Source: a virus. From it: DNA of 20,455 nt. The notes beneath the pieces are model-generated. The model was not told where the DNA came from, did not search any database, and was given only the letters and a program-made list of their open reading frames with translations. Made by a program: the position numbers and the translations under genes. The stretch is taken from IMG/VR virus record IMGVR_UViG_3300008262_004312, positions 1-20,455 of that record, one strand, 5' to 3'. This document shows, piece after piece, positions 15,870-17,344 of this stretch (positions are counted from its first letter, which is position 1; each line of letters starts with the position of its first letter).

Positions 15870-15920
15870 AGAATGCTAACAGCAATTTTAATTACACTTG
15901 AAACGTAAAAAACGCATTCT
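15870..15920 (+). ncRNA. ACAGCAA-family element, member 8, in the Ro60-like mRNA leader
   Basis: Stem AGAATGC (15870-15876) with GCATTCT (15914-15920), box ACAGCAA 15879-15885; inside, TTTT/AAAA and TTAC/GTAA pair around a small loop. The 3' strand ends one base before the GAAAGGA ribosome binding site of the Ro60-like gene. Binding of the protein here could block its own translation. Confidence 0.68.
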
Positions 15921-15934
15921 GAAAGGACACACAT

Positions 15935-17344
15935 ATGAACGCATTTGTTAACGCAATCGCAAACCAAGAAGCCCGTACCGCTAACGGTATGAAGGCTCGT
16001 AAGTCAACAGCTAAGGCCACAGTTGACCTGTTTTACAACATCGGTGCAAGCCGCGGTAAGGACATTACCAAGAACTTCGTAGCCGCTTATGTTGAAAACT
16101 CTGACCTAGCACTACGCATCGCACAATGGGCACGTGATGTCCGTGGTGGTGCAGGTGAACGTCAACTTTTCCGTGACATCCTTGTCTACTTGGAAAAGAA
16201 TGAACCAGATGCCGCATTGGCTCTGCTTCGTAAGGTTCCTGAAGTTGGTCGTTGGGATGACATCTTTGTCTTCACTACTCCAACTCTAAAGACAGCCGCT
16301 TACACAATGTTGGGCGATGCCCTTCGTGCAGGTAACGGCCTTGCCGCTAAGTGGACTCCACGTAAGGGTAAGGTTGCGGCTGAAATCCGAGCATTCTTCG
16401 GAATGACTCCAAAGCAATACCGTAAGAGCCTTGTTGCTCTTACCAAGGTCGTTGAAACACAGATGTGTGCCAACGATTGGGATAACATCAACTTCTCGCA
16501 TGTTCCTTCTGTTGCGGCTCGTCTGTACAAGAAGGCGTTCAACCGTCATACTCCAGCATTTGCTGAATATGTCGGCAAGTTGGTAGCAGGTGATAAGACT
16601 GTTAAGGTTAACGCCAACGCAATCTTTCCACATGATGTTATCAAGGGTATCGCTCACTCATATGTGAAGTTTGACAAGACTGAAACAGATCATGTCATCG
16701 CACAATGGGAAGCTCTGCCAAACTACGTTGGTGATGCAAGCATCATGCCAATCGTTGACGTTTCAGGTTCTATGACTTGCCCAGCAGGTAAGAACACTAG
16801 CGTTCGTTGTTTGGATGTAGCAGTTGGTCTAGGCCTGTACCTAGCAGACAAGAACAAGGGTGTGTTCAAGGATACATTCTTGACTTTCTCGGACAAGCCA
16901 GAACTTGTTACCCTAAAGGGCAACATTGTTCAAAAGGTAGACCAAATGTCTAAGAGCAACTGGGAAATGTCGACTAACCTAAATGCGGCTATGAAGAAGA
17001 TTCTAGACGTTGCGGTTAAGGGTAATGTCCCACAAAGCGACATGCCAAAGATGTTGCTGATCTTGTCAGACATGCAATTCAACCAATGCGCTCGTTTCGA
17101 CGACAGCGCAATGGAAATGATTGAACGCAAGTTTGCGGATGCGGGTTACACCGTTCCACAAATTGTGTTCTGGAACTTGAACGCTAGCGATAACGTTCCT
17201 GTTAAGTCAGACAAGTCGGGTGCGGCTTTGGTCAGTGGATTCAGTCCAAGCATCATGACAGCTCTGTTGTCCGCTGATCTGGATCAATTCACTCCAGAAG
17301 GTATCATGCTTAAGACTGTAATGGTCTCACGCTACGACCTTTAA
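15935..17344 (+). CDS. Ro60-like (TROVE/vWA) RNA-binding protein
   Basis: A 469-residue protein. The N-terminal half is an alpha-helical-repeat domain of the TROVE/DUF2828 type; RDVRGGAGERQLFRDIL (about residues 68-84) is its hallmark, followed by GRWDDI. The C-terminal half is a von Willebrand A domain with a MIDAS motif DVSGSM (D275, S277, S279). Ro60 proteins form a ring that binds Y RNA outside and 3' ends of misfolded RNAs in its cavity; bacterial versions work with YrlA RNAs and exonucleases. Three ACAGCAA-family RNAs lie directly upstream on the same strand. Lys codons are nearly all AAG and the gene seems richer in G+C than its neighbours, suggesting strong expression or a separate origin. 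The GAAAGGA site supports ATG 15935. A DUF2828 protein of other function cannot be excluded. Confidence 0.85.
   Translation: MNAFVNAIANQEARTANGMKARKSTAKATVDLFYNIGASRGKDITKNFVAAYVENSDLALRIAQWARDVRGGAGERQLFRDILVYLEKNEPDAALALLRKVPEVGRWDDIFVFTTPTLKTAAYTMLGDALRAGNGLAAKWTPRKGKVAAEIRAFFGMTPKQYRKSLVALTKVVETQMCANDWDNINFSHVPSVAARLYKKAFNRHTPAFAEYVGKLVAGDKTVKVNANAIFPHDVIKGIAHSYVKFDKTETDHVIAQWEALPNYVGDASIMPIVDVSGSMTCPAGKNTSVRCLDVAVGLGLYLADKNKGVFKDTFLTFSDKPELVTLKGNIVQKVDQMSKSNWEMSTNLNAAMKKILDVAVKGNVPQSDMPKMLLILSDMQFNQCARFDDSAMEMIERKFADAGYTVPQIVFWNLNASDNVPVKSDKSGAALVSGFSPSIMTALLSADLDQFTPEGIMLKTVMVSRYDL

Follow-up and report, generated by a model that had tools for sequence, protein, structure and literature searches.

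A Y-like RNA element conserved at the ribosome binding site of phage Ro60-like genes is a candidate autoregulatory operator

Analysis of IMG/VR virus record IMGVR_UViG_3300008262_004312, a stretch of 20,455 nucleotides (the window) that comprises the entire record and contains about 36 tRNA genes, revealed an RNA element directly at the ribosome binding site of a gene for a Ro60-like protein (15935-17344, plus strand). The leader element (15870-15920, plus strand) consists of AGAATGC (15870-15876), TA, an ACAGCAA box (15879-15885), a 28-nt loop and GCATTCT (15914-15920), and thereby forms a 7-bp stem with the box beside its 5' arm. As the first-pass annotation of this DNA had stated, this last member of a family of Y-like elements directly abuts the ribosome binding site GAAAGGA (15921-15927, plus strand, identified by sequence), which is followed by a 7-nt gap and the ATG at 15935. 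We computed the element, its conservation, covariation and position, as well as the Ro60 fold of the protein. On these sequence grounds the leader element is proposed to be an operator. The best explanation, and a fairly probable one, is autogenous translational repression that is relieved when free Y-like RNAs titrate the protein.

In the 80 closest relatives and the window together, a matching stem accompanied 232 of 334 sense-strand ACAGCAA boxes versus 2 of 81 antisense boxes. Since the closest relatives are redundant, the 176 phage genes were cut to 63 with less than 80% protein identity, and a leader element was defined as a box C[ACT]GCA joined to a stem of at least 6 bp that ends at most 40 nt from the ATG. 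By this definition 41 of the 63 non-redundant phage genes carry a leader element, as compared with 1.5 on average, and never more than 4, in dinucleotide-shuffled leaders. Four further phage leaders (loci L145, L158, L162 and L168) were judged by eye to contain an element with a small mismatch. Other open reading frames (ORFs) at the same loci that are preceded by a Shine-Dalgarno (SD) sequence had an element in only 10 of 233 cases (Fisher p 8e-25).

The leader stem covaries strongly. In a swap test, box-anchored 7-nt 5' arms were used, and the 3' arm was not picked by its own leader; 33 of 40 arms found a pairing partner downstream in their own leader, versus a mean of 5.4 and a maximum of 13 in exchanged leaders (2000 permutations). 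When 35 leaders were aligned with MAFFT, 97.4% of the stem cells paired, and compensatory changes occurred at five of the seven stem pairs, with 45 double changes in all as compared with 12.5 in shuffled and at most 5 in slid controls. Four KVP40-like phages (L096, L277, L278 and L279) have a box and a 6-bp GACATT/AATGTC stem with the ATG lying within the 3' arm; these leaders are suggestive only, because their stem bases are invariant and hence show no covariation.

The 3' arm of the leader element ends 11-26 nt upstream of the ATG (median 19), at 20 nt or less in 30 of the 41 phage leaders, and the SD sequence starts 0-15 nt past the arm. In several lineages the final bases of the stem merge into the SD sequence (CCTGGAG, TCTGGAG, TCTGAAAGGA). 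The box varies among leaders (TACAGCAA, TTCAGCAA, TTCCGCAA and, rarely, TGCTGCAT) and the loops are free, ranging from 11 to 75 nt. At L035, L085, L127 and L128 a promoter-like site of the type TTGACA-17-TATAAT lies so close on the 5' side that the leader would consist of little but the element. At L031 the leader element and the gene start appear to be partly duplicated.

The gene encodes a predicted RNA-binding protein of 469 aa. Pfam searches assigned it to DUF7788 and DUF2828 with a weak VWA_2 match, and the TROVE model remained unmatched up to E 10; PHROGs (phrog_850) labels it an RNA-binding protein. An AlphaFold2 model built from 45 phage sequences (pLDDT 90.4) had Ro60 as its best structural match (VIA Z 20.9 over 407 residues, 2i91_A), and the top ten matches were all Ro60/TROVE structures; further matches included Rsr (2nvo, Z 12.3) and Ro60 of Thermus phage phiLo (Z 15.8), and Foldseek concurred. 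According to this model the protein has a Ro60 fold, a HEAT-like ring with a vWA domain, and the name "Ro60-like" chosen from the letters of the window is correct by fold because the model matches Ro60 best. Genetic linkage suggests that the protein probably binds ACAGCAA-box RNAs. The DUF2828/DUF7788 family was found in 681 of the sequenced phage records searched and in many bacteria, with most members annotated merely as hypothetical or RNA-binding.

Copies of the element also lie near these genes. In the window a sigma-70-like promoter, TTGACA-17-TACAAT (15448-15476, plus strand), assigned by consensus match only (11 of 12 positions), precedes three tandem elements and the Ro60-like gene: element 1 (15496-15597, plus strand; stem AGGTTAG/CTAACCT, ACAGCAA, 79-nt loop), element 2 (15609-15860, plus strand; stem AGGATAG/CTATCCT, ACAGCAA, 229-nt loop) and the leader element. 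A genome-contig search with a single-protein query returned no relatives and one with an alignment query returned 142, while viral searches with the Aeromonas APT65 and Campylobacter proteins added few loci. Phages with copies adjoining the Ro60-like gene infect Synechococcus, Sinorhizobium, Aeromonas, Vibrio, Escherichia, Bacillus, Campylobacter, Listeria, Enterococcus, Staphylococcus and Mycobacterium. Free-standing copies near the gene are mostly in the sense orientation, both in phages (155 sense vs 17 antisense) and near bacterial homologues (131 vs 36), and a leader copy was present at 18 of 75 bacterial loci versus 2.1 in shuffles. A Lokiarchaeota metagenome-assembled contig (L246), which is possibly mis-binned, has two elements (GAGATGC/GCATCTC) 5' of a homologue. 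An Oscillospiraceae element (L262, 3410-3536) has a full-length YrlA match of 41.3 bits, which ties the ACAGCAA stem to bacterial YrlA-type Y RNAs.

In the mechanism that we infer, which comprises binding, repression and titration, the Ro60-like protein would bind a family of small RNAs that share a terminal stem of 6-8 bp with an ACAGCAA-type box next to the 5' arm. Its own mRNA would hold one copy in the 5' leader, with the 3' arm abutting or almost abutting the ribosome site. When in excess over its free-standing partner RNAs, the protein would bind the leader copy and block the 30S subunit; abundant partner RNAs would instead titrate it off the leader, and translation would resume. The outcome would be protein synthesis tied to RNA supply, a balance as in ribosomal-protein autoregulation. 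Because the gene carries a copy of an RNA that its protein probably binds, the protein would very likely shut down its own synthesis when RNA partners run out. A translational operator is expected to be conserved where ribosomes load onto the mRNA of the very protein that binds it, and the leader element, presumably occupied by the protein, shows this arrangement. Phage T4 gp32, which represses its own mRNA (PMC535899), provides a phage precedent. Autogenous repressors such as gp32 and the ribosomal proteins likewise are RNA-binding proteins with a site, here putative, in their own leader, but the phage leader site differs from theirs in mimicking a family of stable small RNAs.

Several observations weigh against such an operator. 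About a third of the 63 phage lineages have no leader element, among them FelixO1-type, Listeria, Enterococcus, Staphylococcus and Mycobacterium phages and several T4-like phages, which have copies elsewhere or none. The autoregulation suggested by the first-pass annotation is thus partly backed by comparison: roughly two thirds of the phage lineages, and some bacteria, have a conserved, covarying copy of the free-standing RNA at the ribosome site, but the leader copy is not universal. Mapped onto a 106-protein tree, the leader label requires 15 changes versus 35 when shuffled, and it fills 36 of the 44 members of one large phage-rich clade as well as a Firmicute clade, a distribution suggesting that the leader circuit is common and retained, not universal. 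RNAalifold predicted zero consensus pairs from the 35-leader alignment, probably because of the long variable loops, and we used pair counts and the swap test instead. In the window, the minimum-energy fold of a longer leader pairs CTGTTAG (15859-15865) with CTAACAG and thereby replaces the element stem. Finally, the leader copy could be a mere RNA gene, because it is the last of a tandem array in many lineages.

This last point leads to the strongest competitor of autogenous repression, in which the leader holds no more than the final Y-like RNA of the array, excised as a partner RNA and exerting no translational control. In its favour, arrays of one to four copies directly precede the gene at many loci, and many lineages have retained CTGTT ends ahead of the ribosome site. 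In several lineages, however, the stem continues into the SD sequence (CTGAAAGGA, CTGGAG), so excision would destroy the latter. Moreover, the leader element is the sole copy at L109, L111 and L131, and other genes are rarely preceded by elements, as the low count among other ORFs at these loci indicated. We regard excision without control as unlikely. Less probable still is that binding to the leader serves to activate or protect the mRNA, or to assemble the protein with it in cis, rather than to repress it. The conservation data would equally fit any binding-dependent effect, but in most lineages an initiating ribosome would be expected to cover the 3' arm, which favours competition with the ribosome.

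Transcription attenuation, in which an alternative hairpin (15859-15882, from the end of element 2 to the box) competes with the element, was considered very improbable. The CTGTTAG...CTAACAG hairpin emerged from a terminator scan as well as from the minimum-energy fold, and similar complementarity exists in close relatives; however, the T run 3' of the hairpin is weak, and attenuation of this kind is impossible in the TTCCGCAA lineages. The same pairing would hide the leader box. As a general switch, CTGTT/AACAG pairing was rejected, since the TTCCGCAA lineages are unable to form it. A chance resemblance without function is contradicted by conservation, covariation and strand bias, and we give it practically no weight.

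To place the element among known RNAs, we compared it with Rfam 15, in which no family covers the ACAGCAA-box element. Bacterial Ro60/Rsr proteins and their Y RNAs (YrlA, D. radiodurans Y RNA) resemble the phage system in the Ro60 fold and in an RNA that combines a terminal stem with a variable module, while the sequence family of the phage protein, DUF2828/DUF7788, lies beyond Pfam TROVE. Some copies of the phage family share the tRNA-like module of YrlA; the copy at 7533 has one (7566-7623), in which the T arm precedes the D arm, and the leader element has none. The YrlA model (RF02553) matches only copies that carry such a module, and it accommodates their ACAGCAA box as an insert. Relative to the cut-off of this model (69 bits), the 7533 element scored 25.1 bits, confined to the tRNA-like module, and the best relative, the L262 copy noted above, also stayed below it; the leader element gave no match to RF02553. 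"Y-like" is therefore apt by function and context, although the box lies outside the known YrlA model. In the literature searched we found no description of a leader copy of a Y-like RNA at a ribosome site, and nothing relevant on self-regulation of Ro60, in a set of papers that excluded key Ro60/Y RNA publications.

The best Rfam match of the leader was instead to the dictyostelid Class I RNAs (RF01414; 15871-15921, 24.8 bits, E 0.0064 in a 141-nt search). These RNAs begin with AAG, end with CUGU and combine a covarying stem of 6 bp with an 11-nt motif (T3, C6, C9, A10 and A11); the authors who described them found none outside Dictyostelia, and the known binder is the RRM protein Rnp1A/Cibp (PMC7919456). 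The phage elements share the short covarying terminal stem, the T..C..CAA motif beside the 5' arm, the CUG(U) end and, in short copies, a length of about 55-60 nt, though their loops can be longer. The leader motif GCTAACAGCAA satisfies all five Class I positions, and other copies and lineages lack T3. When 19 whole phage genomes were searched, the best RF01414 hits at E up to 0.1 lay within 2 kb of the Ro-like gene and on the same strand in 15 of 19 cases, as compared with 0.47 expected. Good matches several kb from that gene were also seen in W08 (KVP40; 176664-176721, 27.4 bits) and W03 (Aeromonas Ahp1; 215580-215631, 27.8 bits), each possibly a free-standing copy. Class I genes differ in having a DUSE promoter about 60 nt upstream and a dictyostelid host, whereas the window holds phage genes and a bacterial-type promoter. 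Because no phage match passes the curated cut-off of 41.5 bits (best phage copy 31.2 bits), the element is not filed as Class I, and the likeness may reflect either homology or convergence.

Listeria phage CKA15 offers a published parallel. Its protein CKA15_055, for which Rsr is the best HHpred match, was detected in the virion, and its authors proposed that the very abundant non-coding transcripts from the 2 kb upstream are Y RNAs (PMC12282133). The protein belongs to the same family as the Ro60-like protein, but the authors define no motif and no leader element (PMC12282133). Our scan found CKA15 elements at 25552-25497, 25465-25406 and 25394-25290, which are not matched to published peaks. 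The transcribed region 26,236-26,727, the only one with published coordinates, contains no strict element by scan, and for this reason CKA15 is not taken as proof of expression.

Elsewhere in the window, three family members lie in the tRNA cluster on the plus strand. One is free-standing (4656-4711, AGGATGC/GCATCCT). The other two (6317-6377, and 7533-7645 with an 89-nt loop containing the YrlA-type module) had been placed in the leaders of small genes, and this position is right, since only 20 and 22 nt separate their ends from the ATGs of ORFs 6398 and 7668, respectively. Control of these two ORFs by the Ro60-like protein, also suggested by the first-pass annotation, is possible but weakly supported by the comparison of loci. 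Five close relatives and L020 retain the adjacency of element and ORF 7668 (7668-7856, plus strand, 62 aa), but the distant homologues of this ORF at L033 and L050-L056 have no element, and ORF 6398 has zero homologues among the fetched loci. The eighth ACAGCAA of the window, at 6246, is inside a tRNA-like gene (6190-6307) that carries a large insertion, and has no element stem. Downstream of the Ro60-like gene, a hairpin with a T run (17371-17398, plus strand) resembles an intrinsic terminator.

The leader element and its relatives thus provide a precise candidate binding site for a Ro60-like family that is widespread in phages and bacteria. If the proposed mechanism is true, it would constitute an autoregulation circuit of a Ro60-like protein, of which no earlier report was found in the literature searched. 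More speculatively, and with rather low confidence, Ro60-fold DUF2828 proteins and ACAGCAA-box RNAs might form one ribonucleoprotein family that spans phages, bacteria, possibly Asgard archaea (the one Lokiarchaeota contig) and dictyostelids, with Class I RNAs, which are linked to multicellular development, as partners and self-regulation through an RNA mimic. Through its resemblance to Class I, the element suggests a candidate protein partner and a possible origin for a so far unexplained dictyostelid RNA class, and the role of Y-like RNAs becomes measurable by a simple reporter.
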